Shown piece after piece: positions 18,012 to 27,810 of a stretch of 28,238 nucleotides of DNA. The position numbers were made by a program, and so were the translations under genes. Under the pieces are notes generated by a model, which saw only the letters and a list, made by a program, of their open reading frames with translations, ran no database searches and was not told the DNA's origin. How positions within the stretch are numbered: the first letter of the stretch is position 1; each line of letters starts with the position of its first letter. The stretch lies in the IMG/VR virus record IMGVR_UViG_3300041585_000076, positions 1 through 28,238 of that record. One strand, written 5' to 3'. The DNA is from a virus.

Positions 18012-18046
18012 TCCTACTATAACTACTAACGAAAGAAGAACAGATA

Positions 18047-18214
18047 ATGACTATCAAATACTCAATTTGGCAAGGCTCACGCTTACTAAGCGTAGATAAT
18101 GTCGCTACAGAAATTAAAGCGATTGACCATTTAATAAATTCGCTAAACGCTAGCGACTTAGGCAAGATAAAGAAATTTCACGCTAACATTTCAGACATAA
18201 AGGTGACCAACTAA
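18047..18214 (+). CDS. 55-residue hypothetical, copy 2 of a duplicated gene
   Basis: Second copy of the 17441 gene (MTIKYSIWQGSRLLSVDNVA). The duplication spans the SD and leader as well, which shows it copied a promoter-proximal unit. Divergence is concentrated at the C-terminus (ISDIKVTN). Function unknown. Confidence 0.7.
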   Translation: MTIKYSIWQGSRLLSVDNVATEIKAIDHLINSLNASDLGKIKKFHANISDIKVTN

Positions 18215-18396
18215 TGATGACCGTATGGGACACTATTCAAGAAGATGTAAAAGACCAATACGCTTACCTCAATGAGGTAGATGAGGAAGAAGATAGTGAT
18301 GAAGATGACATTTTTAATTTTTCTAAGGCTATCGAGATAGACCATCTCACAGACGAACAACTAGATGAAATTGCTACTATGCTAGGGGTTAAATAA
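18214..18396 (+). CDS. Acidic small protein
   Basis: 60 residues, with NEVDEEEDSDEDDIF in the centre and HLTDEQLDEIATMLGVK at the end. TAATG junction with the previous gene; ATG 18217 could also serve. Very acidic small phage proteins often mimic DNA or bind host enzymes; here that is only a possibility. Confidence 0.65.
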   Translation: MMTVWDTIQEDVKDQYAYLNEVDEEEDSDEDDIFNFSKAIEIDHLTDEQLDEIATMLGVK

Positions 18397-18504
18397 ATGA
18401 AAGAATTTATCATAGCCCTACTAACCTTACAATTATTGAATGCTATTTTTCTAGTGCCTTTAATACTATGGGTAATTAAACAAAATAAGAAATTGGGCAA
18501 CTAA
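18397..18504 (+). CDS. Small membrane protein
   Basis: 35 residues: one long hydrophobic segment (FIIALLTLQLLNAIFLVPLI) followed by a basic tail IKQNKKLGN. Starts right after the previous stop; the stop overlaps the next ATG (TAATG). Function unknown. Confidence 0.55.
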   Translation: MKEFIIALLTLQLLNAIFLVPLILWVIKQNKKLGN

Positions 18505-18623
18505 TGAACAGACTACTTACTAGCCTAGTACAAATAGCCCTTGCTATTCCCGCCCTATACCTAGGGCGTATGATGTGGCGCGAGATCGTAGCCGATTTTA
18601 GAGAGTGGGATAAATCACACTAG
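18504..18623 (+). CDS. Small amphipathic/membrane protein
   Basis: 39 residues: MNRLLTSLVQIALAIPALYL, GRMMWREIVADFREWDKSH. One hydrophobic segment then a charged helix. Last gene before the first full intergenic module. Confidence 0.55.
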   Translation: MNRLLTSLVQIALAIPALYLGRMMWREIVADFREWDKSH

Positions 18624-18627
18624 CCCT

Positions 18628-18722
18628 ACGGCGTGTCGACTTGACAAGTCGGCAAGCTCCCCCACACTTGGTACGGGGTCGGGCGTGTCGTTAAGAGTGT
18701 GAGATTAATCACCCTGGAATTT
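18628..18722. repeat. Intergenic GC-rich element, copy 1
   Basis: 95 bases, nearly identical to 19470-19564. Parts: the palindrome CGACTTG-A-CAAGTCG (18637-18651), a CCCC...GGGG arm pair (about 18660-18678), GGTCGGGCGTGTCGTTAAGA, the box TGTGAGATTAATCACC and CTGGAATTT. The last 48 bases (18675-18722) recur in all four copies. The element is GC-rich in an AT-rich genome and is found only between genes of the right arm. Confidence 0.8.
18698..18713. promoter_or_regulatory. Crp/GlxR-type box inside element copy 1
   Basis: TGTGAGATTAATCACC, one mismatch in the second half-site; centre 98.5 bases before the -10 at 18804. Confidence 0.5.
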
Positions 18723-18737
18723 GTGAGTAATCTCACA
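18722..18737. promoter_or_regulatory. Second Crp/GlxR-type box
   Basis: TGTGAGTAATCTCACA, perfect; starts 24 bases after the first box; centre 74.5 bases before the -10. Confidence 0.55.
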
Positions 18738-18787
18738 CGCAATTTACACGCTCCACATAATGAGATTATTTTGCTAGGATTGGATAA

Positions 18788-18809
18788 TGTCAGACCCTTC
18801 TGGTATTCT
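18788..18809 (+). promoter_or_regulatory. TGTCAG-N10-TATTCT promoter
   Basis: The -10 is TATTCT. The leader contains AAAGTTAAAGTTTAACTT, a partial dyad, then AAAGAAAGG before ATG 18856. Confidence 0.6.
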
Positions 18810-18855
18810 TACAGTATAAGAAAAGTTAAAGTTTAACTTAAAGAAAGGTTATCAA

Positions 18856-19035
18856 ATGATAATACTAAAAATAAATAAGTGCTTAGAGCACACACCTAAT
18901 GAGAGCGCTATCTCATTCTATCAAGATACAGAATACACATTCTGTGAAGTTTGCGAAATTAACATTGAGCAATTCTGGATTTTTGATGATGAGGATAGAC
19001 TTCCTTTTGCTACAGGTTGGCAGGTATCTAACTAA
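18856..19035 (+). CDS. Small hypothetical with CxxC
   Basis: 59 residues; YTFCEVCEINIEQFWIFDDE in the middle gives one CxxC, and KCLEHTPNES upstream may supply Cys/His ligands. Not recognised. TAATG junction with the next gene. Confidence 0.65.
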   Translation: MIILKINKCLEHTPNESAISFYQDTEYTFCEVCEINIEQFWIFDDEDRLPFATGWQVSN

Positions 19036-19154
19036 TGTTTAGTCAATGCTTAAAGTGTGGTTACATAGCAGACCCTCAAGATGTTTGGTGTATGGTTTGC
19101 ACACCTAAGTTTTCACAGCGTATGGTACGCGTTACAGAAAAGGGAAAAAAATAA
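19035..19154 (+). CDS. Zinc-ribbon micro-protein
   Basis: 39 residues with two CxxC pairs: CLKCGY and CMVC, 11 residues apart, then a basic tail (QRMVRVTEKGKK). This is a minimal zinc ribbon; a nucleic-acid role is likely but unproved. Overlaps both neighbours by one base. Confidence 0.6.
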   Translation: MFSQCLKCGYIADPQDVWCMVCTPKFSQRMVRVTEKGKK

Positions 19155-19363
19155 TGGAAGATTTCTACGATGAATTACTTAATGATTGCTATGGAGAAAT
19201 CAAGCTTGGCAATTTAGTTTTCTCCCCCGCTGAAATTATCAAACGCCTTGACCCTATCGCTTATCATCAAGGCTTGTTAGATTTTGAGGACACAATGCGT
19301 GAAAATGTAAGAGAAGAAAAAGACGAAATGATTGCACAACTAAACGAAGAAAAGGAAAATTAA
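19154..19363 (+). CDS. Small hypothetical protein
   Basis: 69 residues: LLNDCYGEIKLGNLVFSPAE, then RLDPIAYHQGLLDFEDTM and a charged helical tail. The phrase 'DPIAYxxGLxDFED' resembles small proteins I have met in other actinophages. Probably soluble. Function unknown. Confidence 0.65.
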   Translation: MEDFYDELLNDCYGEIKLGNLVFSPAEIIKRLDPIAYHQGLLDFEDTMRENVREEKDEMIAQLNEEKEN

Positions 19364-19365
19364 TA

Positions 19366-19467
19366 ATGGAAAACATACAACAGCAATTTGCAAATGCAAT
19401 TCAAACAGATCATCTTACTAAATCAGAATTGGATTTAATAGAAGAGATGTTTAAAGATTTTTCTTAA
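19366..19467 (+). CDS. Helical micro-protein
   Basis: 33 residues: MENIQQQFANAIQTDHLTKS, ELDLIEEMFKDFS. Two short helices; the look of a small helix-turn-helix or adaptor, without a family match. Two bases after the previous stop. Confidence 0.5.
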   Translation: MENIQQQFANAIQTDHLTKSELDLIEEMFKDFS

Positions 19468-19469
19468 AC

Positions 19470-19564
19470 ACGGCGTGTCGACTTGACAAGTCGGCAAGCC
19501 CCCCCACACTTGGTACGGGGTCGGGCGTGTCGTTAAGAGTGTGATATAAAACACCCTGGAATTT
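19470..19564. repeat. Intergenic GC-rich element, copy 2
   Basis: Same length and order as copy 1 (18628-18722). The box inside is altered to TGTGATATAAAACACC. A partial third start of the motif, ACGGCGTGTTGACTTGACAA, follows at 19564. Confidence 0.8.
19540..19555. promoter_or_regulatory. Degenerate Crp/GlxR-type box
   Basis: TGTGATATAAAACACC, two mismatches in the right half-site. Confidence 0.35.
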
Positions 19565-19602
19565 ACGGCGTGTTGACTTGACAAACAAAACGGACATTTT
19601 TG

Positions 19603-19618
19603 TGTGATTAGTATCACA
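19603..19618. promoter_or_regulatory. Crp/GlxR-type box
   Basis: TGTGATTAGTATCACA, perfect half-sites; centre 73.5 bases before the -10 at 19684. It may replace the degenerate box upstream. Confidence 0.55.
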
Positions 19619-19667
19619 CGACTTGAGCGTCTCAATATTTGAAATTACTGGTTAGTAGGTAGATAAA

Positions 19668-19689
19668 TGTCAGCCCTTGAGTGTATAAT
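19668..19689 (+). promoter_or_regulatory. TGTCAG-N10-TATAAT promoter
   Basis: Perfect. The leader has CAACGAAAGAAGG before ATG 19723. Confidence 0.7.
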
Positions 19690-19722
19690 GTCTACTATAA
19701 CAACAACGAAAGAAGGTCAGAA

Positions 19723-19839
19723 ATGAACCTAGACGAATTCCGTCAGCACATTCTCGCTCAGCGCGAGGAAAGCAAGGCTCAAGCCTTGTCAGTCCTATCT
19801 GCTACAATGTCAAAATCAACAACGAAAGAAGGAAAATAA
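19723..19839 (+). CDS. 38-residue protein whose 3' end contains the next promoter
   Basis: MNLDEFRQHILAQREESKAQ, ALSVLSATMSKSTTKEGK. The N-terminal 20 residues form a charged helix. Codons for the rest coincide with TGTCAG-N10-TACAAT and the leader CAACGAAAGAAGG of the next gene, so the C-terminus TTKEGK is a read-through of regulatory DNA. Its own promoter is at 19668. TAATG junction. Confidence 0.55.
   Translation: MNLDEFRQHILAQREESKAQALSVLSATMSKSTTKEGK
19787..19808 (+). promoter_or_regulatory. TGTCAG-N10-TACAAT promoter inside a coding region
   Basis: Lies within the 3' half of 19723-19839; its leader CAACGAAAGAAGG precedes ATG 19839. No Crp-type box nearby. Confidence 0.65.
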
Positions 19840-20039
19840 TGTCAGTAAATATCTATAGTGTAGAAAGCCTATTGGTAGGCAAAATGTATTATTCCAATTC
19901 CGTAAGGGGCGAGATTGTTTCAGCCGAAAAAAATGGTGATGTCTGGTATTCGGGCGCAGACACTTACAAAGTGCAGATAAGCCCTACCAATTCAATTAAA
20001 GACACATACCGATATGTAGCGGTAAAGGTAGGTGACTAA
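19839..20039 (+). CDS. Small beta-rich hypothetical protein
   Basis: 66 residues. YSVESLLVGKMYYSNSVRGE, then SADKxGDVWY-like SAEKNGDVWYSGADTYKVQI and RYVAVKVGD suggest a small beta barrel. Unknown function. SD GAAGG. TAATG junction with the next gene. Confidence 0.65.
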   Translation: MSVNIYSVESLLVGKMYYSNSVRGEIVSAEKNGDVWYSGADTYKVQISPTNSIKDTYRYVAVKVGD

Positions 20040-20197
20040 TGGATACAATTAAATTAAATGAGTGGTATTACACTACCGACCAAAGTTTATACTGTTGCGA
20101 TGAATTTCAGTATGTAAACTATTGCTATGCTCACGATGAAGCGCAGGGGTGCTATTATTGCGAGTCCGATTATTTCAAAAAATGTGAGTGTGATTAA
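20039..20197 (+). CDS. Cys-rich small protein
   Basis: 52 residues with eight cysteines: SLYCCDEF, YVNYCYAHDE, GCYYCESD and KKCECD, plus a His. The arrangement resembles one or two small zinc sites. No family recognised. Followed immediately by the next ATG. Confidence 0.6.
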   Translation: MDTIKLNEWYYTTDQSLYCCDEFQYVNYCYAHDEAQGCYYCESDYFKKCECD

Positions 20198-20341
20198 ATG
20201 GGATTTATTGAAATTTTTCGCCTTGATGAACAAGGTGCTGGCTGGGTAGATTTATCCGAAGCCACCCCCGATGAAATGTTTAACTTAGAACTTGGCTTGC
20301 TTAATGAGGGAGCCTTATTCTCTAGCCCCGAAACTGAATAA
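20198..20341 (+). CDS. Small acidic hypothetical protein
   Basis: 47 residues: MGFIEIFRLDEQGAGWVDLS, EATPDEMFNLELGLLNEGAL. Its TAA runs directly into the TGTCAG promoter at 20343. Confidence 0.6.
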   Translation: MGFIEIFRLDEQGAGWVDLSEATPDEMFNLELGLLNEGALFSSPETE

Positions 20342-20342
20342 A

Positions 20343-20364
20343 TGTCAGTGGCAAGTGCTATAAT
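20343..20364 (+). promoter_or_regulatory. TGTCAG-N10-TATAAT promoter
   Basis: Perfect. It begins two bases after the stop of 20198-20341. The leader is CCAAACGAAAGG before ATG 20393. The ATG within TGTCAG (20342) opens a frame that is not a real gene start. No Crp-type box upstream. Confidence 0.7.
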
Positions 20365-20392
20365 ACTTACTCAACCAAACGAAAGGCAAACT

Positions 20393-20596
20393 ATGTATAA
20401 AGTAACTTCAGCAAATGACGGATTTGCTCCATCTTGGAGCAAAGAATTTGAGAGCGAATACGAAGCGTGGAAATCTTTTTTTAGTTTCATTGACTGGGGT
20501 TTTTCTGACGAATACCGCACAGTCAATTTATCAACACCAACTGGCAAAATGTATACAAAAACTTTTTATCGTAATGGAGAGGTCGTAGTTAAATGA
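20393..20596 (+). CDS. Small hypothetical protein
   Basis: 67 residues from ATG 20393, chosen because ACGAAAGG precedes it and the promoter lies just upstream. MYKVTSANDGFAPSWSKEFE, SEYEAWKSFFSFIDWGF and YTKTFYRNGEVVV suggest a compact alpha/beta domain. ATGA overlap with the next gene. Confidence 0.7.
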   Translation: MYKVTSANDGFAPSWSKEFESEYEAWKSFFSFIDWGFSDEYRTVNLSTPTGKMYTKTFYRNGEVVVK

Positions 20597-20778
20597 TGAC
20601 AAGAAAAGATTATGTTGCAACCGCAGAAATTCTAAACTATGCAAGCAATAAAATTCACCCCGCTTTATTTTCTAAAATGGTTGGAGATTTCGCAACTATG
20701 TTTGCAACGGATAACCCTAGATTTGATGTTACGCGATTTCATACCGCAAGCAATTACAAAATAAAGGTGGGTCAATAA
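20593..20778 (+). CDS. MTRKDYVATAEILN-type small phage protein, copy 1
   Basis: 61 residues. The start MMTRKDYVATAEILNYASNK and the phrase MFATDNPRFDVTRFHTAS match the plan of the gene at 22726-22908 (MMTRKDYVATAEILNKNADE ... FENDNPGFNAERFWEA). Small proteins with this 'TRKDYxxxAEIL ... DNPxFxxxRF' pattern are common in tailed phages; function unknown, mostly helical. Confidence 0.75.
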   Translation: MMTRKDYVATAEILNYASNKIHPALFSKMVGDFATMFATDNPRFDVTRFHTASNYKIKVGQ

Positions 20779-20921
20779 TGATTTTAGAAATGTCAGCAAT
20801 TTATTGCGAAGAGTGTAATGACTCAGCATTTATTATTCAACACGAGGATAAAATAGAAATCTCAGCGTGTTATTGTGCGCAAGATTTACAAAAAATAGCG
20901 GACTGGATAAATGAGCCTTAA
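20778..20921 (+). CDS. Cys-containing small protein
   Basis: 47 residues: AIYCEECNDSAFIIQHEDKI, then ISACYCAQDLQKIADW. CEEC and CYC with a His between could bind zinc. ATG overlaps the previous stop. Confidence 0.6.
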   Translation: MILEMSAIYCEECNDSAFIIQHEDKIEISACYCAQDLQKIADWINEP

Positions 20922-21030
20922 AGAAAAAATAAAACGAATACAGGAGCTGCGGAGATCAAATGCCGCGACTCCTGTTCGTAATAAAAAAAAATACACAAGA
21001 AAAATAAAGCATAAAAATAAACACGACTGA
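20911..21030 (+). CDS. Very basic micro-protein
   Basis: 39 residues, mostly Lys/Arg (KEKIKRIQELRRSN, then NKKKYTRKIKHKNKHD). It overlaps the previous gene by 11 bases in another frame and has no SD of note. Charge suggests binding to DNA or RNA. Confidence 0.45.
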   Translation: MSLKEKIKRIQELRRSNAATPVRNKKKYTRKIKHKNKHD

Positions 21031-21042
21031 ATAAATATGCAG

Positions 21043-21107
21043 CCCCCCACACTTGCTGCGGGGTCGGGCGTGTCGTTAAGAGTGTGAGATTAATCACCCT
21101 GGAATTT
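21043..21107. repeat. Intergenic GC-rich element, copy 3
   Basis: CCCC...TGCGGGG arms, GGTCGGGCGTGTCGTTAAGA, box and CTGGAATTT, without the CGACTTG palindrome. ACGGCGTGTCG follows. Confidence 0.75.
21083..21098. promoter_or_regulatory. Crp/GlxR-type box inside element copy 3
   Basis: TGTGAGATTAATCACC; centre 52.5 bases before the -10 at 21143. Confidence 0.5.
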
Positions 21108-21126
21108 ACGGCGTGTCGTAGATAAA

Positions 21127-21148
21127 TGTCAGTCCCCTGTGGTATTAT
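21127..21148 (+). promoter_or_regulatory. TGTCAG-N10-TATTAT promoter
   Basis: The leader is CCAAACGAAAGG before ATG 21179. Confidence 0.65.
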
Positions 21149-21178
21149 TTCATTATCAACCAAACGAAAGGCAAACTT

Positions 21179-21271
21179 ATGAACAATTGTGGCTCTTGTG
21201 GTGAAGTTACTTCACAATTTATTACTGATGACGGCGAATATTATTATCCAATGTGTGGGGAGTGCTATTAA
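21179..21271 (+). CDS. Zinc-ribbon micro-protein upstream of GP88
   Basis: 30 residues: MNNCGSCGEVTSQFITDDGE, YYYPMCGECY. Two CxxC pairs 17 residues apart form a minimal zinc ribbon. TAATG junction puts it in the same unit as the GP88 gene. Confidence 0.6.
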   Translation: MNNCGSCGEVTSQFITDDGEYYYPMCGECY

Positions 21272-21993
21272 TGACTAAATTACTACGCTCTAAAGATAGA
21301 AAAGTCGCTAACGCCGTATCTCCTAATGGTAAGACTGCAACAATTGCTAACACTTTTGGGCTACCCGCAGGAAAAGCATACTCTTGTCCTGGAGCCACGA
21401 GCATATGCGAAAGCGTATGCTACGCAGGAAAGTTAGAAAAGGTATTCCCTAGTGTAAAGAAGAATTTATTACATAACTGGGAATTGTTACGCAATGCAGA
21501 TATTGAAACTATGACTATCCTATTGGATGAGATGATAAAGGACTTCCGCAAGGATTGTGAAAAGAAAAACGCTAAAATGTTATTCCGCATTCACTGGGAC
21601 GGCGATTTTTTTAATGATATTTATACCTATGCTTGGAAAAATGTTATTGAAAATAATACTGATATTCAATTTTGGGTTTATACTCGCGTAAAGTCTGCAG
21701 CCCTAATTCTAAAAAATATAACTAACCTATCATTATATTATTCAACCGATGATGAGAATAAAGAAATAGCATTTGATTTAAAGCGTAATGAAAAAATAAA
21801 ATTGGCATACTTAGGAAAAACATTCGACTTAACTAAAAATAGTATGTTGGAGCTAACTGGTAAGCCTGGGGCTAAATGTCCTGAAAATTTAAAGTCAATT
21901 CCATTAATTTCAACTAATGGCAGCGCGTGTGTATCTTGCGGATTATGTGTATACGGTAAGGCGGATATTAGATTTTCATCAAGTAAAAAATGA
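21271..21993 (+). CDS. GP88 family phage protein
   Basis: 240 residues from ATG 21271 (overlaps the previous stop; an upstream ATG at 21253 lies inside the previous gene). SKDRKVANAVSPNGKTATIA, then SCPGATSICESVCYAG and RIHWDGDFFN are hallmarks of the GP88 family named after a mycobacteriophage protein. Cysteines C39, C46, C50 near the N-terminus and CVSCGLC (C220, C223, C226) at the C-terminus could together hold a metal or Fe-S cluster (inference). The biochemical function is not established to my knowledge; it may be nucleic-acid linked. Confidence 0.85.
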   Translation: MTKLLRSKDRKVANAVSPNGKTATIANTFGLPAGKAYSCPGATSICESVCYAGKLEKVFPSVKKNLLHNWELLRNADIETMTILLDEMIKDFRKDCEKKNAKMLFRIHWDGDFFNDIYTYAWKNVIENNTDIQFWVYTRVKSAALILKNITNLSLYYSTDDENKEIAFDLKRNEKIKLAYLGKTFDLTKNSMLELTGKPGAKCPENLKSIPLISTNGSACVSCGLCVYGKADIRFSSSKK

Positions 21994-22088
21994 TATACGA
22001 TATTATTGGGGCCCTGGGAGGGATAGTGATCATACTAGTATCCTTGTCACCCTTTATTCTTGCATGTTATATATTTTTTAAAGATTAA
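21990..22088 (+). CDS. Small membrane protein
   Basis: 32 residues with one hydrophobic segment (IIGALGGIVIILVSLSPFIL). ATGA overlap with GP88. Function unknown. Confidence 0.5.
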   Translation: MIYDIIGALGGIVIILVSLSPFILACYIFFKD

Positions 22089-22096
22089 CGGCGTGT

Positions 22097-22118
22097 TAGC
22101 TTGACAACCGTCAAGCTA
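22097..22118. promoter_or_regulatory. Hairpin/dyad TAGCTTGAC-aacc-GTCAAGCTA
   Basis: Nine-base perfect arms, extendable by one or two pairs, in the position of the CGACTTG palindrome of copies 1 and 2 and after the same GGCGTGT. The arms differ but stay self-complementary, which points to a conserved structure rather than conserved sequence. Confidence 0.5.
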
Positions 22119-22132
22119 GCCCGTATATATAG

Positions 22133-22172
22133 GGGGTTATCCACAGTCTTATGAACACTTGTGGAAAACCCC
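22133..22172. promoter_or_regulatory. Inverted pair of DnaA boxes
   Basis: TTATCCACA (22137-22145, perfect DnaA box) and TTTTCCACA on the other strand (22160-22168) lie in an imperfect inverted repeat, GGGGTTATCCACAG / CTTGTGGAAAACCCC. Host DnaA could bind here. Confidence 0.55.
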
Positions 22173-22180
22173 TGAAAAAA

Positions 22181-22196
22181 TGTGAGATTAAACACA
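22181..22196. promoter_or_regulatory. Crp/GlxR-type box
   Basis: TGTGAGATTAAACACA, one mismatch; centre 62.5 bases before the -10 at 22251. Confidence 0.5.
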
Positions 22197-22234
22197 GAAA
22201 AATTTTTGCGACACGCCGATGTTAAAATTGTAAA

Positions 22235-22256
22235 TGTCAGACCGTTACGCTATAAT
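22235..22256 (+). promoter_or_regulatory. TGTCAG-N10-TATAAT promoter
   Basis: Perfect. The leader is CAACGAAGGAG before ATG 22287. Confidence 0.7.
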
Positions 22257-22286
22257 TCTCTTATACCAACAACGAAGGAGAAATAA

Positions 22287-22556
22287 ATGACAATGACTCA
22301 ACTAGATACAACTAACTGGGTTTCATACCCTTTCACAGTAAGCGGAATTGACTTTGTTTCTAAAGTTAATCCTGAAAGTTCAATAGGTATTAAAGTAAGT
22401 TTTATTCCTGTTGAAATGTTTAACTCAATGAATAGCGAAGCAGTTCTTGACATCATAGGCAACCCGTCTCTATTGTCTGCCGATAAATTAAAATCTGAGT
22501 TAGTTCGTGTTAATCATAGCGCAAGCGAAGCAATAATTGAATTGGCAGGTGAGTAA
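22287..22556 (+). CDS. Small hypothetical protein
   Basis: 89 residues: TTNWVSYPFTVSGIDFVSKV, MFNSMNSEAVLDIIGNPSLL, and HSASEAIIELAGE at the end. A beta N-terminal half and a helical C-terminal half. Strong SD GAAGGAG. Not recognised. Confidence 0.7.
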   Translation: MTMTQLDTTNWVSYPFTVSGIDFVSKVNPESSIGIKVSFIPVEMFNSMNSEAVLDIIGNPSLLSADKLKSELVRVNHSASEAIIELAGE

Positions 22557-22558
22557 TA

Positions 22559-22723
22559 ATGAGTAAAAAAGTTTGGAATTCATCACTTACCGCTGAAGAT
22601 GTAGCGAGTCTATCATCAGGACAACAAGAAGAGTTATTTGAAAACTTAAACGATGCAGTCATGTATGCTTGCCAAGAGTTCGGTTTATTTTCTGATGAAG
22701 AAGATGAAGAGGAGGAGGACTAA
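22559..22723 (+). CDS. Small protein with poly-acidic tail
   Basis: 54 residues ending FSDEEDEEEED; the body SLTAEDVASLSSGQQEELFE is helical. Two bases after the previous stop. The acidic tail could mimic DNA charge or simply keep it soluble. Confidence 0.65.
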   Translation: MSKKVWNSSLTAEDVASLSSGQQEELFENLNDAVMYACQEFGLFSDEEDEEEED

Positions 22724-22725
22724 AA

Positions 22726-22908
22726 ATGATGACACGAAAAGACTATGTAGCAACCGCAGAAATTCTAAATAAAAATGCTGATGAGTTAGGTTCTAACTTA
22801 TTGGACACACTTGCAAATCAATTTATTGAAATGTTTGAAAATGATAACCCAGGATTTAACGCTGAAAGATTTTGGGAAGCGTGTTTCAAGGAGAGTGAGA
22901 GAGTATGA
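22726..22908 (+). CDS. MTRKDYVATAEILN-type small phage protein, copy 2
   Basis: 60 residues, paralogue of 20593-20778: identical over the first 15 residues, then diverged but keeping DNPxF and the final aromatic helix (RFWEACFKESERV). Duplication within the same arm. Its stop overlaps the next start (ATGA). Confidence 0.75.
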   Translation: MMTRKDYVATAEILNKNADELGSNLLDTLANQFIEMFENDNPGFNAERFWEACFKESERV

Positions 22909-23048
22909 TTTTAGATACTGGAACATTAATTGGAATTTGTATTGCACTTACTAGTTCAATTATTGCTATGGTTTCATTTTATTTAGTCAATGTACAACTA
23001 GAAAAAGAAAATCGCCGTTTGCAAATTGAATTGGCAGGTAAGCAATAA
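22905..23048 (+). CDS. Membrane protein with short coiled coil
   Basis: 47 residues: a membrane segment (GTLIGICIALTSSIIAMVSF) followed by QLEKENRRLQIELAGK, a coiled-coil type helix. The size and plan are like small phage spanin- or Rz-like or anti-holin proteins, but no lipobox or partner is seen. Function unknown. Confidence 0.6.
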   Translation: MILDTGTLIGICIALTSSIIAMVSFYLVNVQLEKENRRLQIELAGKQ

Positions 23049-23329
23049 TGGGATACACAACTGCGTTAGAATTATCAGATAGCGGAATGGACTTAGAATC
23101 GTCTATTGGTATGCACCTTAGAATGAATCACTATCCACCCGTTCCGCTTGCTATGGTGCAACCCTGTATTGATGCTATTGATGCTTATTGGGAAGGTAAC
23201 TATGAATTAAAAATAGACTTACCTAAAGACATAACTTGGCGAGGCAATAACTATGCCACCGCGTCCGCTATTATTGATGCCCACCACTTAGACGCTTGGC
23301 TAGTGGATACAGAAGGCTACGAGGACTAG
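23048..23329 (+). CDS. Conserved actinophage protein (NHYPPVP motif)
   Basis: 93 residues. LHLRMNHYPPVPLAMV-type phrase (HLRMNHYPPVPLAMVQPCID) and YATASAIIDAHHLDAWL are known to me from many actinobacteriophage small proteins. No function is established. The start overlaps the previous stop (TAATG). Last gene before the module at 23338. Confidence 0.75.
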   Translation: MGYTTALELSDSGMDLESSIGMHLRMNHYPPVPLAMVQPCIDAIDAYWEGNYELKIDLPKDITWRGNNYATASAIIDAHHLDAWLVDTEGYED

Positions 23330-23337
23330 CGATCTTA

Positions 23338-23367
23338 GTAGGCGTGTGAGATTACTCACACGCCTAC
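23338..23367. terminator. 13-bp perfect hairpin containing a Crp-type box
   Basis: Arms GTAGGCGTGTGAG and CTCACACGCCTAC around ATTA. No T run follows, so it is either a factor-assisted terminator or an operator. The centre is TGTGAGATTACTCACA (23345-23360). Confidence 0.55.
23345..23360. promoter_or_regulatory. Crp/GlxR-type box within a hairpin
   Basis: TGTGAGATTACTCACA, perfect half-sites; centre 134.5 bases before the -10 at 23487, farther than the others. Confidence 0.5.
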
Positions 23368-23430
23368 GCCCGCAATAGCTGCGGGGTCGGGCGTGTCGTT
23401 AAGAGTGTGAGATTAATCACCCTGGAATTT
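23368..23430. repeat. Intergenic GC-rich element, copy 4
   Basis: CCCGCA-ATAGC-TGCGGG hairpin, GGTCGGGCGTGTCGTTAAGA, box and CTGGAATTT. Confidence 0.75.
23406..23421. promoter_or_regulatory. Crp/GlxR-type box inside element copy 4
   Basis: TGTGAGATTAATCACC; centre 73.5 bases before the -10 at 23487. Confidence 0.5.
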
Positions 23431-23470
23431 ACAGGCTTGCAGTCTCAAATAGTAAGATTGGGCTGGTAAA

Positions 23471-23492
23471 TGTCAGTCCTTAATGTTATAAT
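23471..23492 (+). promoter_or_regulatory. TGTCAG-N10-TATAAT promoter
   Basis: Perfect. The leader is AGAAAAGAGG before ATG 23521, less like the CAACGAAAGG type. The ATG at 23470 inside TGTCAG is not a gene start. Confidence 0.65.
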
Positions 23493-23520
23493 TACAACCT
23501 ACACAGAAAAGAGGCAAAAA

Positions 23521-23703
23521 ATGGCAGTAGATAACTTCACTTATCAGGTTGGTGATTTATTCACCACTCTAAAGTCAAAAAAGACAGGCGTGATTAAAGA
23601 AATCCACCCACAACCATCTGGCTCGGTGCGTGTGCTACTAGAAATGCCAACAAAGGAAACTCGTTGGACTTCAGTGTCCGCTAATTCCCTGCTAGGCGCA
23701 TAA
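23521..23703 (+). CDS. Small SH3-like beta protein
   Basis: 60 residues from ATG 23521 (SD GAGG). YQVGDLFTTLKSKKTGVIKE, then SGSVRVLLEMPTKETRWTSV is the pattern of a small SH3-like barrel ('GDLF...KTGVI...VRVLLE...TRWTSV') seen in phage proteins. Function unknown; nucleic-acid or protein binding possible. Confidence 0.65.
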   Translation: MAVDNFTYQVGDLFTTLKSKKTGVIKEIHPQPSGSVRVLLEMPTKETRWTSVSANSLLGA

Positions 23704-23710
23704 GTAATGG

Positions 23711-23735
23711 GGTGGGACTGCTTGTCAGTCCCACC
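23711..23735. promoter_or_regulatory. 10-bp perfect inverted repeat overlapping a promoter
   Basis: GGTGGGACTG-cttgt-CAGTCCCACC. Its right arm includes the CAG of TGTCAG and most of the 10-base spacer of the promoter at 23723. As RNA it would end the previous transcript; as DNA it could be an operator. Confidence 0.6.
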
Positions 23736-23744
23736 TGCTATACT
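23723..23744 (+). promoter_or_regulatory. TGTCAG-N10-TATACT promoter
   Basis: The leader is ACCAACGAAAGG before ATG 23777, the best match to the loop of the candidate sRNA at 27539-27634. No Crp-type box. Confidence 0.65.
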
Positions 23745-23776
23745 AACAACTTAACCAACCAACGAAAGGTATCAAA

Positions 23777-24202
23777 ATGGCACAAAGAGGAAAAGCAATT
23801 AGCGTAAAGATAGCAACACCTAAAGTAATTAAGGCACTTGAAAGTGCACTTGTTAAGTTAAACCTTAACTACTCATCACAAGAAGCAAACGAAGCAAAAT
23901 ACGACAAAGCCGTAAAACAATACAACAAAGAAATCGCAAAACTTGCTATGACTCAATTTTCTAAAGCAGAAAATGTCAGAGTAAATGTTCGTTCGTGGAA
24001 TAAATCAGTTAATGTTGATTTTGATTTACCATACGGCTTAGTCACTTTCCCTGAAGAGCCAACTCGTGACTATGAGTCAATTCACTTCAGCACTTATCGT
24101 GAGTCAAAGCAAGAATTAGAAAATGCAATTTCAATTCTTAAAATGACAGATGAGGAAACAGTTTCCACATCAACTTATCAAGCGGTAGCCCGTTATCTAT
24201 AA
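23777..24202 (+). CDS. Hypothetical protein, 141 residues
   Basis: A helical N-terminal half rich in Lys and Ala (RGKAISVKIATPKVIKALES, YDKAVKQYNKEIAKLAMTQF), then a beta part with VRVNVRSWNKSVNVDFDLPY and a helical end (SKQELENAISILKMTDEETV). No known motif. One of the larger products in the arm, with its own promoter and a strong leader, so probably abundant. Confidence 0.7.
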   Translation: MAQRGKAISVKIATPKVIKALESALVKLNLNYSSQEANEAKYDKAVKQYNKEIAKLAMTQFSKAENVRVNVRSWNKSVNVDFDLPYGLVTFPEEPTRDYESIHFSTYRESKQELENAISILKMTDEETVSTSTYQAVARYL

Positions 24203-24262
24203 TTAAATAAACAACCTGAGTATGTTGCTAAACTACTCACTAACTACTATCAAAGGAACAAA

Positions 24263-24496
24263 ATGCAAAATCGATTTAAGATACAAATGTTTGATGAAGT
24301 AAAATCAAACGATATCACAATGTATTCTGATGAAGGATATGACAATGAATCTCTTAAGGAGTTAGTTTTTTCTAACTTAAAAAAGTTTGACGGAAATGTA
24401 AAAGCATTTGTCTATGATCAAAAAAACAAAAAGAAAACATCTGCGGCATTCTTTCCTATGGAAACAGTAAACTACGTAAAAAATCTAATAAAATAA
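24263..24496 (+). CDS. Small basic hypothetical protein
   Basis: 77 residues: MQNRFKIQMFDEVKSNDITM, then FDGNVKAFVYDQKNKKKTSA. A basic alpha/beta protein; SD AAAGGA. The 60-base gap upstream has only a weak TGC-TAAACT, so it may be read from the 23723 promoter. Confidence 0.65.
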   Translation: MQNRFKIQMFDEVKSNDITMYSDEGYDNESLKELVFSNLKKFDGNVKAFVYDQKNKKKTSAAFFPMETVNYVKNLIK

Positions 24497-24554
24497 TAAT
24501 AAGACCTGGGTATGTCTTTAAAATTCCCAGCTTGGCCCGCAATAATGTGGGGGG

Positions 24555-24584
24555 TTATCCACAGGTTTAAGAGGGTTATCCACA
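24555..24584. promoter_or_regulatory. Two direct DnaA boxes, 21 bases apart
   Basis: TTATCCACA at 24555-24563 and 24576-24584, same strand, both preceded by GGG. The 21-base period puts them on one face of the helix. They lie just upstream of a Crp-type box and the DUF932 promoter. Confidence 0.6.
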
Positions 24585-24596
24585 ATCCCTGAAATT

Positions 24597-24612
24597 TGTG
24601 AGATTAATCACA
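24597..24612. promoter_or_regulatory. Crp/GlxR-type box
   Basis: TGTGAGATTAATCACA, perfect; centre 62.5 bases before the -10 at 24667. Preceded by CCCTGAAATT. Confidence 0.6.
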
Positions 24613-24650
24613 TTATACAATTTGGACATCTTATACTTAGCCGTATACAA

Positions 24651-24672
24651 TGTCATACCCCTATGTTATACT
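24651..24672 (+). promoter_or_regulatory. TGTCAT-N10-TATACT promoter
   Basis: One mismatch in the upstream element. The leader is CTAACAAAGGAG before ATG 24703. Confidence 0.6.
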
Positions 24673-24702
24673 AAATCTAACAACCTAACAAAGGAGAAAA
24701 AA

Positions 24703-25710
24703 ATGGCTCATAATCTCGAAATCAAAAATGGCGAAGTAGCATTTGCATTGCGTGGCGCACCTGCGTGGCACAATCTTGCTAATCGAATTTTTACAAAAGA
24801 TGAGGAAGTTACTACATCTTTAATGCTTAGCGAAGCAAAATTATCAAACTGGAATGTTCGCTTATCTCCACTTACCAACCACATTTCAGAATCTTGGAAT
24901 GATGTATCTAATGCGTCTCTTGTAATTCGCGATAACCCTTTCAATGGCGAAACCGATGTTCTTGCTACTGTTGGAAAGCGTTACAAGCCTGTGCAAAATG
25001 AAGAGTTATTTCAATTTGCAGACGCTATCCACGACGCCGACCCTGCTTGCCGTTGGGAATCTGCTGGTTCATTAAAGAAGGGTAAAGTTGTATTTGGAAC
25101 TGTGGACATTCCACGCACTATGGTGTTAGACCCACAAGGTGCTAATGATGAGACAAAACTTTATCTTATCGTATGGACATCACACGACGGCTCTGTTGCC
25201 GTTCAAGCAGCCGTTACCCCTGTTCGTGTTGTATGCCAAAACACTTTGAACTTTGCTGTAAATAATGCTAAGCAATCATTCAAAATTCGACACACACAAT
25301 CTGTTGAGGGTAGAATTCAAGTTGCTCGTGAAACTCTAGGGCTTGCTCTAGGCTACTTTGATGAATTTGAAAAGGAAGCACAAGCACTTTATTCTCAGTC
25401 AATTACTGACGCTGAATTCTCAAAATTGATTCAGACAATTTATCCAAAGCCAGCAGAAGGTTCTGCAAAAGTTGCGCTAACTAAATGGGAAAATAAGGTT
25501 GTGCTACTTGATGAACTTTATCACAATTCACCAACTAACGCCACAATCAAGGGAACTAAGTGGGGCGCATTCAATGCGCTAACTGAACGCCTAGACTATT
25601 TCCGTTCAGGTCGTGGAAATTCTGAAACACTTATGGCAGGTGCTTCAGGATTTGACCCAATCATTACCGCAGAAAAAAATAAAATTAAAAAATTAATTTC
25701 TGCGTTCTAA
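24703..25710 (+). CDS. DUF932 phage/plasmid-like protein
   Basis: 335 residues from ATG 24703 (SD AAAGGAG); the longer frame from 24598 would run through the promoter. VAFALRGAPAWHNLANRIFT, then WNVRLSPL, LATVGKRYKPVQNEELFQFA and VQAAVTPVRVVCQNTLNFAV are the marks of DUF932 (TIGR03299-type), widespread in phages and plasmids. RSGRGNSETLMAGASGFDPI stands near the end. The function is not known with certainty; links with replication or recombination have been proposed. It has DnaA boxes and a Crp-type box upstream. Confidence 0.88.
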   Translation: MAHNLEIKNGEVAFALRGAPAWHNLANRIFTKDEEVTTSLMLSEAKLSNWNVRLSPLTNHISESWNDVSNASLVIRDNPFNGETDVLATVGKRYKPVQNEELFQFADAIHDADPACRWESAGSLKKGKVVFGTVDIPRTMVLDPQGANDETKLYLIVWTSHDGSVAVQAAVTPVRVVCQNTLNFAVNNAKQSFKIRHTQSVEGRIQVARETLGLALGYFDEFEKEAQALYSQSITDAEFSKLIQTIYPKPAEGSAKVALTKWENKVVLLDELYHNSPTNATIKGTKWGAFNALTERLDYFRSGRGNSETLMAGASGFDPIITAEKNKIKKLISAF

Positions 25711-25749
25711 ATAATAAAATTCCTGAGCAAGAATTAAAACTGCTCGCAA

Positions 25750-25823
25750 GATTCCATAGATCAATTGGTTAGATCGCTACCCTGTCACGGTAGAGGCTGC
25801 GGGTTCAAGTCCCGTTGGAATCG
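25750..25823 (+). tRNA. tRNA-Asp (anticodon GUC)
   Basis: 74 bases: acceptor GATTCCA/TGGAATC (7 pairs), D stem GATC/GATC with TTGG in the loop, anticodon stem CTACC/GGTAG with loop CTGTCAC, T stem GCGGG/CCCGT with TTCAAGT. Discriminator G, no encoded CCA. It follows the DUF932 gene. Confidence 0.93.
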
Positions 25824-25881
25824 CTAGGAGTGTCGACTTGACAAGTTGACAGCTGGCCCGCAATTTTAAGGGACACAAAAG

Positions 25882-25897
25882 TGTGTTACGGATCACA
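25882..25897. promoter_or_regulatory. Degenerate Crp/GlxR-type box
   Basis: TGTGTTACGGATCACA, one mismatch; centre 53.5 bases before the -10 at 25943. A GTGTCGACTTGACAAG palindrome like that of copy 1 lies upstream at about 25830-25845. Confidence 0.45.
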
Positions 25898-25926
25898 TAA
25901 AATTTCCCCCAGATTCTATTGACTTA

Positions 25927-25948
25927 TGTCAGTGGCATCCGCTATACT
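25927..25948 (+). promoter_or_regulatory. TGTCAG-N10-TATACT promoter, leaderless output
   Basis: The -10 ends 7 bases before ATG 25956, so this member of the family probably makes a leaderless mRNA. Confidence 0.6.
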
Positions 25949-25955
25949 TCCTACT

Positions 25956-26555
25956 ATGACAACGAAACAATATGACAAAACAACCCTAGTATGCACCAAC
26001 ACCATGTCATGCGACGCCACCCTGTATGTAACATCTAAGTGGTTTGACATACATTCACACGGTGCTTGCCCTGCATGCGGAGCAAACCTGTTGATAGTAT
26101 CGGATACAATACAACCTAACCTAACGAAAGAAGAGCAAATGGAAACAGAAACAGGAGTCTTCACAACTGAGTTCTTGCTAAACAAGATCGCAGAAATGCA
26201 GGCAGATAAAAATGAACAAGATACACTCATCAAGCAATTAGAGCATGCAAAAGAAAGTCTATACAAATCAGTTAACGGATACCACACAAAAGAACAATGG
26301 CTTCTTGATTACCTAATAAATAACTATGATGAACTTGAGCAACACGCACAGGTCATTGCAGATATTTTTGGAATTGCATTAACTAAGGAAGTTGAATACG
26401 ACGTTACTATCACTGCCCGTATTGTCGTTGAGGTTTCAATGGATGAAGTTGACAGTGTTGAAGATTTTATTTCAAGCAATGTCAGCGTTGATTCTTATAC
26501 CTCAGAGATGACTATTATGAATCACGAAATTCAAGATGTAGTTGAGGTGAAATAA
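25956..26555 (+). CDS. Zinc-ribbon plus coiled-coil protein with internal start
   Basis: 199 residues from ATG 25956, placed at the predicted transcription start; an ATG at 25926 lies inside the promoter. Residues about 13-48 hold VCTNTMSCDA, HSHGACPACG: a zinc ribbon. After the leader-like DNA coding NLTKEEQ, Met62 at 26140 starts METETGVFTTEFLLNKIAEM, a helical coiled-coil region, then YDVTITARIVVEVSMDEVDS and a beta C-terminus. Upstream of 26140 the DNA reads AACGAAAGAAGAGCAAATG, a standard leader, so a 138-residue form probably also exists. It looks like two genes fused in frame. Function unknown. Confidence 0.65.
   Translation: MTTKQYDKTTLVCTNTMSCDATLYVTSKWFDIHSHGACPACGANLLIVSDTIQPNLTKEEQMETETGVFTTEFLLNKIAEMQADKNEQDTLIKQLEHAKESLYKSVNGYHTKEQWLLDYLINNYDELEQHAQVIADIFGIALTKEVEYDVTITARIVVEVSMDEVDSVEDFISSNVSVDSYTSEMTIMNHEIQDVVEVK
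26089..26110 (+). promoter_or_regulatory. Degenerate internal promoter before Met62
   Basis: TGTTGA-N10-TACAAT followed by AACGAAAGAAG and ATG 26140. The upstream element is poor, the -10 and leader are good. Confidence 0.4.
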
Positions 26556-26758
26556 TGTACTTTGAACTTACCGCTCCGTCTCAGATTGCCCTGCAGAGGG
26601 CTTTATGGGATGCTGAGATAATCGGATTAGACCCAGAGTTAATGTCAGCATTGACTTTCAACATTGGAACTGGTAGTATTGAGAAAGTAAGTAGGATTCG
26701 TGATAAGTATAACTTAATTGAATCTTACTGGTCAGATAAACAGGCAACAGGATACTAG
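26555..26758 (+). CDS. Small hypothetical protein
   Basis: 67 residues: MYFELTAPSQIALQRALWDA, LMSALTFNIGTGSIEKVSRI. Helical with a Gly turn. TAATG junction with the previous gene. I have seen similar small proteins in actinophages but cannot name a family. Confidence 0.65.
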   Translation: MYFELTAPSQIALQRALWDAEIIGLDPELMSALTFNIGTGSIEKVSRIRDKYNLIESYWSDKQATGY

Positions 26759-26766
26759 GAGATAAA

Positions 26767-26913
26767 ATGTCAGATTACAAAGATGGTTTTGAGGACGGGT
26801 ATAAGTTTGCTCGTGAGGAGATGATGGAGAAGTTATCAGAGATTGATATTGCTGATATTGATTCTTGGATTCTTGACCGTCTTTCTGAGATGATTGAGGG
26901 AGGTGCATTGTGA
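26767..26913 (+). CDS. Acidic helical small protein
   Basis: 48 residues: MSDYKDGFEDGYKFAREEMM is a 'GFEDGYKxAREE' helix common in phage small proteins, followed by SWILDRLSEMIEGGAL. SD TAGGAGA. TGATG junction with the next gene. Confidence 0.65.
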   Translation: MSDYKDGFEDGYKFAREEMMEKLSEIDIADIDSWILDRLSEMIEGGAL

Positions 26914-27101
26914 TGACTGAATGGCTTAAGTGTGATCAATGTACAGCCCAAGCCATGTGGGAAGCTAAGAAAGATTCTTTCTCATTATATTTTTGCGGGC
27001 ATCACAAAAATTTGCAGGGTGAAACCCTTGTGGACTGGGCACAAAAAATGGTACAATTGCTAAACTACGAAAAAAAACAACAACTAGAAACGGCGGAATA
27101 A
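26913..27101 (+). CDS. DUF7455-like zinc-ribbon protein
   Basis: 62 residues from ATG 26913 (overlapping the previous stop). LKCDQCTAQAMWEAKKDSFS and LYFCGHHKNL give CxxC ... CxxH, the pattern 'CDxCxAxA...LxFCGHH' of a zinc-binding family widespread in actinobacteria and their phages. Function unknown; the fold probably binds one zinc. Confidence 0.75.
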   Translation: MTEWLKCDQCTAQAMWEAKKDSFSLYFCGHHKNLQGETLVDWAQKMVQLLNYEKKQQLETAE

Positions 27102-27103
27102 AT

Positions 27104-27508
27104 ATGGGAGACAGAGCAAACTTTGGGTTTACACAATCCAACGGCGATACAATCATAGTATATGGACACTGGGCAGGCTCGGGAATGCTGGACCTATTAG
27201 CACGAGCAGTTGATAAGGCACGCTCTAGGTGGTCGGATGAATCATATGCAACACGCATTGCTATATCTAATTTAATTCAAGATGAGTGGACCAGCGAAAC
27301 TGGATGGGGAATGCTAGTTAATCAGCGAGGGGACAATGAGCATAAGATTCCAATCGTCAACTTTGACTTAGGAACTTTTAGTCTTCATGGAGAGGCTACA
27401 TTTAGCGATAGCAATAAAATTAAGGGTGTTGTAGATGAACCCTTGTTTGTTAGTACTTTAGACTCATTTGTATCTAAGTATGCTAAGGAATTGATTCTAG
27501 TAGATTAA
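27104..27508 (+). CDS. Conserved actinophage MGDRANF protein
   Basis: 134 residues. MGDRANFGFTQSNGDTIIVY, GHWAGSGMLDLL, WSDESYATRIAISNLIQDEW, and NQRGDNEHKIPIVNFD are all conserved phrases of a family I know from many actinobacteriophages. No function is known. It lies two bases after the previous stop, and its 3' region carries the structured RNA at 27539-27634. Confidence 0.82.
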   Translation: MGDRANFGFTQSNGDTIIVYGHWAGSGMLDLLARAVDKARSRWSDESYATRIAISNLIQDEWTSETGWGMLVNQRGDNEHKIPIVNFDLGTFSLHGEATFSDSNKIKGVVDEPLFVSTLDSFVSKYAKELILVD

Positions 27509-27538
27509 TTTAAGGGTGCCTCTAAGAGTCCGCAAGGG

Positions 27539-27634
27539 CCAGGGGTTAAATAAAGCAGAGTTTTTTACTTTCGTTGGTGATACTCTAGCAGCCTGTATAT
27601 AAATACCCCTGGTTGTCAGATCCAGGGGTTTTTA
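27539..27634 (+). ncRNA. Candidate phage sRNA with anti-leader loop
   Basis: A stem GCAGAGT/ACTCTaGC (27555-27561 and 27582-27589) holds a 20-base loop with CTTTCGTTGGT (27568-27578). This is the exact complement of ACCAACGAAAG in the leader at 23758-23768 and of CAACGAAAG in several others. CCAGGGGT (27539-27546) can pair with ACCCCTGG (27605-27612) to close the structure, or the latter can pair with CCAGGGG (27622-27628) as a terminator. No clear promoter is seen, so it would be derived from the 3' end of the upstream mRNA. Function is inferred, not shown. Confidence 0.4.
27606..27634 (+). terminator. Rho-independent terminator
   Basis: CCCCTGG (27606-27612), a 9-base loop, CCAGGGG (27622-27628), then TTTTTA. 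It ends the operon from 25956 onward and the candidate sRNA. Confidence 0.85.
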
Positions 27635-27701
27635 TTTGCCCGCAAAAGCTAAGGGTAATATATTCTTGTTACGAAGTAAATAGCAATTCGCCTGAAATTT
27701 G

Positions 27702-27717
27702 TGTGACATTGACCACA
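27702..27717. promoter_or_regulatory. Crp/GlxR-type box
   Basis: TGTGACATTGACCACA, one mismatch, preceded by CCTGAAATTT; centre 68.5 bases before the -10 at 27778. Confidence 0.4.
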
Positions 27718-27728
27718 TTGGAATTAAA

Positions 27729-27744
27729 TGTGGTGTGAAACACA
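27729..27744. promoter_or_regulatory. Degenerate Crp-type box
   Basis: TGTGGTGTGAAACACA, weak half-sites; centre 41.5 bases before the -10. Confidence 0.3.
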
Positions 27745-27761
27745 CTAAATTCTATTCCATT

Positions 27762-27783
27762 TGTCGGTGGTCTGATATATAAT
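27762..27783 (+). promoter_or_regulatory. TGTCGG-N10-TATAAT promoter
   Basis: One mismatch in the upstream element and a perfect -10. The leader is TCAACGAAAGG before ATG 27811. Confidence 0.65.
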
Positions 27784-27810
27784 TAGAACATATCAACGAA
27801 AGGATATAAT

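Follow-up and report, generated by a model that had tools for sequence, protein, structure and literature searches.

The window examined here, which is the whole 28,238-nucleotide stretch of viral record IMGVR_UViG_3300041585_000076 (positions 1 to 28,238), carries on its + strand a structured RNA with a three-way junction at 27507..27601, supported by a covariance model match of 82 bits and by covariation. In most relatives the gene directly 5' of the RNA is a conserved one that corresponds to phrog_31860, of unknown function, which occupies 27104..27508 (+ strand) in the window. The RNA, all of it on the + strand, comprises the P1 stem (27510-27517/27591-27598), the P2 stem (27518-27523/27541-27546), a conserved joiner UAAAUAAA (27547-27554), the P3 stem (27555-27560/27583-27589) and the P3 loop CUUUCGUUGGU (27568..27578), the last being defined by sequence, pairing probabilities and conservation of an octamer; UUCGUU within the loop (27570-27575) is predicted to be about 0.99 unpaired. 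An intrinsic terminator on the same strand (27605..27633; ACCCCTGG/CCAGGGGT followed by T5) was identified from sequence, folds and a terminator search. The first-pass annotation had proposed a hairpin followed by a U-run terminator, and both are present in the window (terminator stem 27605-27629, then T5). Two corrections apply: the hairpin forms just one arm, P3, of a larger conserved RNA with its start near 27507, and the closest relatives do not keep the T-run terminator. The P2 arm CCAGGGG (27539-27545) is able to pair with the terminator arm CCCCTGG (27606-27612), and it is possible that the window version of the RNA refolds in this way; the pairing is not kept in close relatives, and an attenuator formed by these arms was dropped as the main function since the terminator is not conserved.

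The P3 loop reads CTTTCGTTGGT (27568-27578) and is perfectly complementary, over 11 bases, to ACCAACGAAAG at 23758-23768. Its core, CTTTCGTT, occurs only once on the + strand of the whole window, at 27568, whereas the complement of that core, AACGAAAG, has 8 + strand copies against 0.55 expected by base composition. All 8 copies fall within 18028-27795, each directly 5' of a start codon. These leaders (all + strand) are situated at 18028..18035 (5' of ORF 18047), 19705..19712 (5' of ATG 19723 and 3' of a promoter motif at 19668-19689), 19821..19828 (ORF 19839), 20378..20385 (ATG 20393), 21163..21170 (ATG 21179, in an operon with a GP88 protein, PF17338), 26123..26130 (ATG 26139) and 27795..27802 (ORF 27811, the first gene 3' of the RNA), together with the perfect 11-base loop complement ACCAACGAAAG at 23758..23768 (ORF 23777). 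A one-mismatch leader, CAACGAAGG, lies at 22270..22278, 5' of ORF 22287. The motif TGTC[AG]G-N10-TATAAT precedes leaders, as exemplified on the + strand at 27762..27783. The leader region is non-structural, and most of the leader-bearing genes have no known function; the window operons encode GP88 and DUF932 proteins.

The longer form CAACGAAAG is found exactly at 19704, 19820, 23760 and 27794, with one-mismatch forms at 18027, 20377, 21162, 22270 and 26122; allowing up to one mismatch, the window contains 22 matches, against 6.3 +/- 2.45 in shuffles. The 11-base complementarity claimed by the first-pass annotation (27568-27578 against 23758-23768) thus held exactly, whereas some of the other coordinates that it gave for matches were 1-7 bases off, the matches themselves being found at the corrected positions. 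Scoring against shuffled controls, which it had proposed, was run on duplex energies: the loop-leader duplex averages -14.7 kcal/mol compared with -7.0 (sd 1.5) for shuffled loops, and none of 1000 shuffles was as strong. The window leaders are predicted to be mostly unstructured (0.59-0.98 unpaired). With an assumed actinobacterial 16S 3' end, ribosomal pairing is estimated at -6 to -10 kcal/mol, which is exceeded by the duplex at about -13 to -17 kcal/mol.

The window has several other features. An intergenic block is repeated at 18640-18730, 19478-19560, 21040-21110 and 23375-23430, comprising a terminator-like CCCCCACACTTGGTACGGGGTCGGGCGTGTC followed by GTGTGAGATTAATCACCCTGGAATTT, and may represent a terminator together with an operator for a phage regulator. 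Between operons, at 22127-22140 and 24550-24590, lie several perfect DnaA-box-like TTATCCACA sequences, and a -10 box (TATACT) within 25940-26000 is about 7 bases 5' of a start codon, a spacing that could hint at a leaderless message.

Fold and distribution of the RNA family

An exact 19-mer scan retrieved seven viral contigs, and scans with the scaffold and with the protein of the upstream gene extended this to over 100. Several of the scans were partial, many of the records are fragments, and all phages related to the window are uncultured, their assignment to actinobacterial hosts being inferred from homology to actinobacterial phages. The relatives have in common a P1 closing stem, the hairpins P2 and P3, and between them the joiner YUAARUAARGC, which hardly varies; the P3 loop displays CUUUCGUU. 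Across 46 sequences, 91.7% of cells in the proposed pairs are standard pairs, a share that falls to 26-47% on sliding the partner, and both sides have changed in 11 of the 19 pairs; the fold is shown by this comparative sequence evidence. Of 96 distinct versions of the RNA, 93 retain the loop octamer. The covariance model returned exactly one convincing copy per related phage genome region searched, at 53-82 bits, and no RNA in the searched loci of Streptomyces, Nocardia and Gordonia phages. Actinomycetia phage DSL-LC01 has related leaders, yet no RNA was found by the model when its whole record was searched. No Rfam family reached the gathering threshold, and at a relaxed threshold only weak chance scores were obtained, the best of them from the terminator part. 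None of the CTTTCHTT loop variants in viral contigs fitted the covariance model convincingly, and a loop-independent pattern run against host genomes gave chance matches only, in a partial search.

Of 94 distinct versions, 60 have an exact TATAAT in the 60 nt 5' of the RNA, where 7.1 would be expected, and 49 are followed by an intrinsic terminator; because of these signals the RNA looks like a gene of its own in most relatives. No recognisable promoter was found upstream of the RNA in the window version and its close group, so that the window RNA may depend on read-through, and the terminator is absent from relatives L001-L005 of this group.

Shared leaders and their evolution with the loop

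About 20 phage records, 96-120 kb in length, have 6-14 copies of AACGAAAG around the RNA, on its own strand, clustered within about 15 kb and beside start codons, 3' of the promoter motif TGTC[AG]G-N10-TATAAT. The P3 loop is almost the sole opposite-strand copy of the motif in those regions. In total, 780 distinct copies of AACGAAAG were collected 5' of start codons, at hundreds of non-homologous gene starts. The consensus, (C)AACGAAAG(G), carries the Shine-Dalgarno sequence, and the motif lies over the latter, 2-14 nt 5' of the start codon. Among 495 measurable leaders the spacing to the ATG has an sd of 2.0, compared with 4.0 for the spacing to the -10 box, and this closer link to the start codon fits an element that acts in the mRNA. 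One leader (L356:5466-5492) has its own upstream CTTTCGTT-ATC-AACGAAAG hairpin, which would hide its own Shine-Dalgarno.

The bases that flank the core change with the loop. Where a C precedes CTTTCGTT in the loop, 214 of 230 leaders have a G after AACGAAAG, compared with 385 of 550 for other loops; where a G follows CTTTCGTT, the corresponding leader C is present in 307 of 678, as opposed to 22 of 102. With row and column effects removed, duplex energies favour the pairing of a clade's loop with that clade's own leaders in each of the four clades, and none of 5000 label permutations was as strong. Neither the flanking-base test nor the clade duplex test includes a correction for relatedness.

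Loss of the loop was compared using leaders picked by the promoter motif alone. In loop-bearing loci a median of 60% (44-86%) of promoter-anchored leaders contain AACGAAAG, compared with 11% in loop-less loci. Likewise, the base before GAAAG is C in 330 of 382 leaders from loop-bearing phages, whereas in loop-less phages it is A in 58 and C in 26. Loop-less phages L386, L393, L400 and L421 keep the scaffold, with P3 loops that are different or shrunken, and retain AACGAAAG in only 0-1 of their 10-13 leaders. The leaders of loop-less phages shift to AAAGAAAGG, which, judging from sequence alone, should fit the ribosome better than AACGAAAG, and the promoters are unchanged where the leader motif is gone.

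Two loop-less records retain the motif to a greater extent. In L405, 10 of 16 leaders keep it; this is only an apparent exception, because a separate and non-homologous 12-bp hairpin about 2.6 kb downstream (L405:11359-11394) bears a loop, TCCCTTTCGTT, with the same CTTTCGTT. In L411, 6 of 14 leaders are kept and no loop is present in the record, the contig ending before the spot of the extra hairpin of L405. The covariance-model match in L411 (8711-8788) has CCCTTTCGG in its P2 loop, complementary to CGAAAGGG, and the pairing site may conceivably have shifted to another arm. Two further cases concern altered loops: that of L220 differs by one base (CTTTCGATGG) from that of L218 while the leaders are unchanged, in near-identical contigs that were taken as uninformative, and in G002 (L170) the scaffold bears loop CCTCGAAAA, with no recurrence in the leaders of either the complement of that loop or AACGAAAG.

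Mapped on a protein tree, the loop label undergoes six changes, of which three fall on branches with good support. Among independent pairs, leaders follow the loop in 2.6 of 3 and never go in the opposite direction, which is too few for significance (sign test p 0.25). Comparative sequence shows the loop to be conserved, the leader to be present in multiple copies, and the two to have evolved together. The first-pass annotation had held that loop and leader changing independently in relatives would refute its proposal; this was examined and is not what the relatives show, since the octamer is kept, the leaders keep its complement, the flanking bases co-vary, and loss of the loop tracks loss of the leader motif.

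Proposed mechanism and rival readings

The element is best explained as a phage-encoded, trans-acting antisense RNA, the three-way junction of which would display CUUUCGUU on arm P3. The loop would pair with the (C)AACGAAAG(G) leader, in which the Shine-Dalgarno lies, of about 8-14 operons spread over a 12-15 kb non-structural region of the phage's own genome. Initiation of translation would then be blocked at all of these operons together, perhaps to shut off early or middle operons at a set time. That the RNA masks the Shine-Dalgarno of a phage-wide regulon is likely, with accumulation of the RNA, pairing in the cell, repression and timing all being inferred. The parts of this reading differ in strength. 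Loop-leader pairing is close to certain on comparative grounds, without expression data; repression via masking is a probable inference, likewise with no expression data; and an early-to-late timed switch is plausible, rests mainly on the mycobacteriophage case considered below, and is judged a little more doubtful than probable. The trans-acting small RNA of the first-pass annotation, targeting a shared leader and Shine-Dalgarno, is therefore supported, with its expression in the window and translational repression unproven, and the dozen operons that it envisaged are put at about 8-14. Several points count against the explanation: expression data are lacking, the window version has no recognisable promoter, L411 retains leaders with no loop in its record, SAS of mycobacteriophages (see below) exist without an anti-SAS hairpin, part of the leader is a plain Shine-Dalgarno, and there are few independent evolutionary contrasts, with three on well-supported branches.

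The alternative that comes nearest, albeit an unlikely one, is that the RNA pairs with the leaders without repressing them, and instead stabilises, activates or marks the mRNAs (for preferential translation, for example), or that the leaders serve as a sponge drawing the RNA off some other target. The sign of the effect is indeed not given by the evidence for pairing, and the leaders are predicted to be mostly unstructured. However, the duplex covers the Shine-Dalgarno and is stronger than ribosomal pairing, which makes activation the harder reading, and with no inhibitory leader structure to open, the classical activation mechanism has nothing to relieve. A reading of AACGAAAG as an element of the DNA or a site for protein binding, near the promoter or akin to an operator, with the loop as an inverted copy and no RNA-RNA pairing, draws some support from the position of the leaders after a common promoter motif, but is very improbable. 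The motif is anchored on the start codon as opposed to the -10 box, is found in one orientation with its inverted copy in the loop of a covarying RNA, and can be absent while promoters persist unchanged; moreover, the non-homologous hairpin of L405 has the same loop.

It could also be argued that the loop is a generic anti-Shine-Dalgarno mimic, resembling the 16S 3' end (CCUUUC), with the match to AACG arising by chance, and CUUUC is, as general background, common to the loop and the actinobacterial anti-Shine-Dalgarno. Against this, the GUU and CUUUC parts of the loop are equally invariant, and leaders keep AACG even though the ribosome would prefer the AGAAAGG used by loop-less phages, so that there is very little to recommend the idea. 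Also remote is the possibility that the main target is a host mRNA or the host ribosome, the phage leaders being merely similar in sequence. The host is unidentified and its transcripts were outside the search, which leaves room for such a target, but the loop and the phage leaders are lost together, tying the loop to phage targets. The preferred reading remains that of an antisense RNA acting on the leaders of its own phage; if true, the loop RNA probably switches 8-14 of the phage's own operons off together.

Comparison with known systems

Mycobacteriophages of cluster K have a start-associated sequence (SAS), GGGATAGGAGCCC, at 11-19 gene starts, and a lone opposite-strand SAS in K1 phages was reported without explanation in 2011 (PMC3203893). 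Microbacterium cluster EF also has SAS (PMC7302621). The role of SAS was unknown according to these papers (PMC3203893, PMC7302621), and is described as ill-defined in 2024 literature and as needing verification in 2025 literature. In Adephagia and Anaya the opposite-strand SAS was found to be intergenic, in the unpaired loop of a long hairpin (L482:38683-38695 and L483:39871-39883; JF704105, JF704106). Eight further K1-type (Anayavirus) phages have the same hairpin, with an invariant loop, CTCCTATCCC, that is the exact complement of GGGATAGGAG, and the homologous region is present in well over 100 records. The stem is 92% paired, compared with 39-49% when slid, with weak covariation among nine sequences. 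In Adephagia the hairpin lies in the gap between genes 92 and 93, in which late transcription appears to start (PMC11373665), and a late-made RNA that silences early genes is therefore suggested; this remains a possibility inferred without any hairpin transcript having been seen. Neither a reverse copy of the SAS nor an anti-SAS hairpin was found in mycobacteriophages TM4 and Pixie or in Microbacterium phage AnnaSerena, all of which have SAS, and an anti-SAS RNA therefore cannot explain SAS entirely. No paper linking SAS to the hairpin was found in the literature searched.

The SAS of clusters K and EF resemble the window leaders in being multi-copy, in one orientation and a few bases before starts, with the Shine-Dalgarno inside, and in being associated with non-structural genes and conserved beyond the need of the ribosome. 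K1 phages also match the window system in having a single opposite-strand copy placed exactly in a hairpin loop. However, the cluster K consensus GGGATAGGAGCCC is unrelated to AACGAAAG, the phage groups are unrelated, and the K1 RNA would be a plain long hairpin as opposed to a three-way junction. A bolder reading, which the evidence does not quite carry, is that actinobacteriophages have repeatedly evolved 'one key, many locks' control, in which every early operon would have the same Shine-Dalgarno leader and a late-made hairpin RNA would silence them all. The comparison offers a testable answer on the role of cluster K SAS, open since 2011, in phages that are genetic tools and therapy candidates, and public Adephagia RNA-seq data (GSE271014) could check the first prediction, an anti-SAS RNA.

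In Streptomyces phages of the Stanwilliamsviridae a tmRNA takes this position, immediately 3' of the homologue of the upstream gene; those of StarPlatinum and Karimac (L343:5418-5697 and L347:5417-5695) lie where the lake phages have the antisense RNA. The window element differs in that neither ARAGORN nor Rfam fits a tRNA or tmRNA model to it. The C4 antisense RNA of P1/P7 is, like the window RNA, phage-encoded and structured, with loops complementary to the region of a ribosome-binding site, and it blocks translation (PMC12197685); the CI RNA of P4 is a similar phage antisense RNA. C4 targets the ant mRNA, whereas the window family would address one leader in 8-14 separate operons and, unlike C4, has no match to an Rfam model of a known antisense RNA. 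By analogy with C4 (PMC12197685), a role in superinfection immunity is possible, and untested. The bacterial trans-encoded small RNAs OmrA/B, GcvB and CyaR are known to mask the Shine-Dalgarno of several mRNAs, and the resemblance lies in a loop or seed that pairs with this region in several messages. The window RNA differs in being phage-encoded and in having an identical 8-11 base target in every leader, and is not known to depend on a chaperone. A phage RNA that masks a ribosome-binding site by antisense pairing belongs to a kind of mechanism already known from C4. What is new is a family of RNAs in lake-type actinobacterial phages without an Rfam match, a single identical target in the leaders of most operons of a region, so far as we know no earlier phage regulon having been described that rests on a single antisense loop with a common translation leader, and the recurrence of this layout, with an unrelated motif, in the K1 mycobacteriophages.
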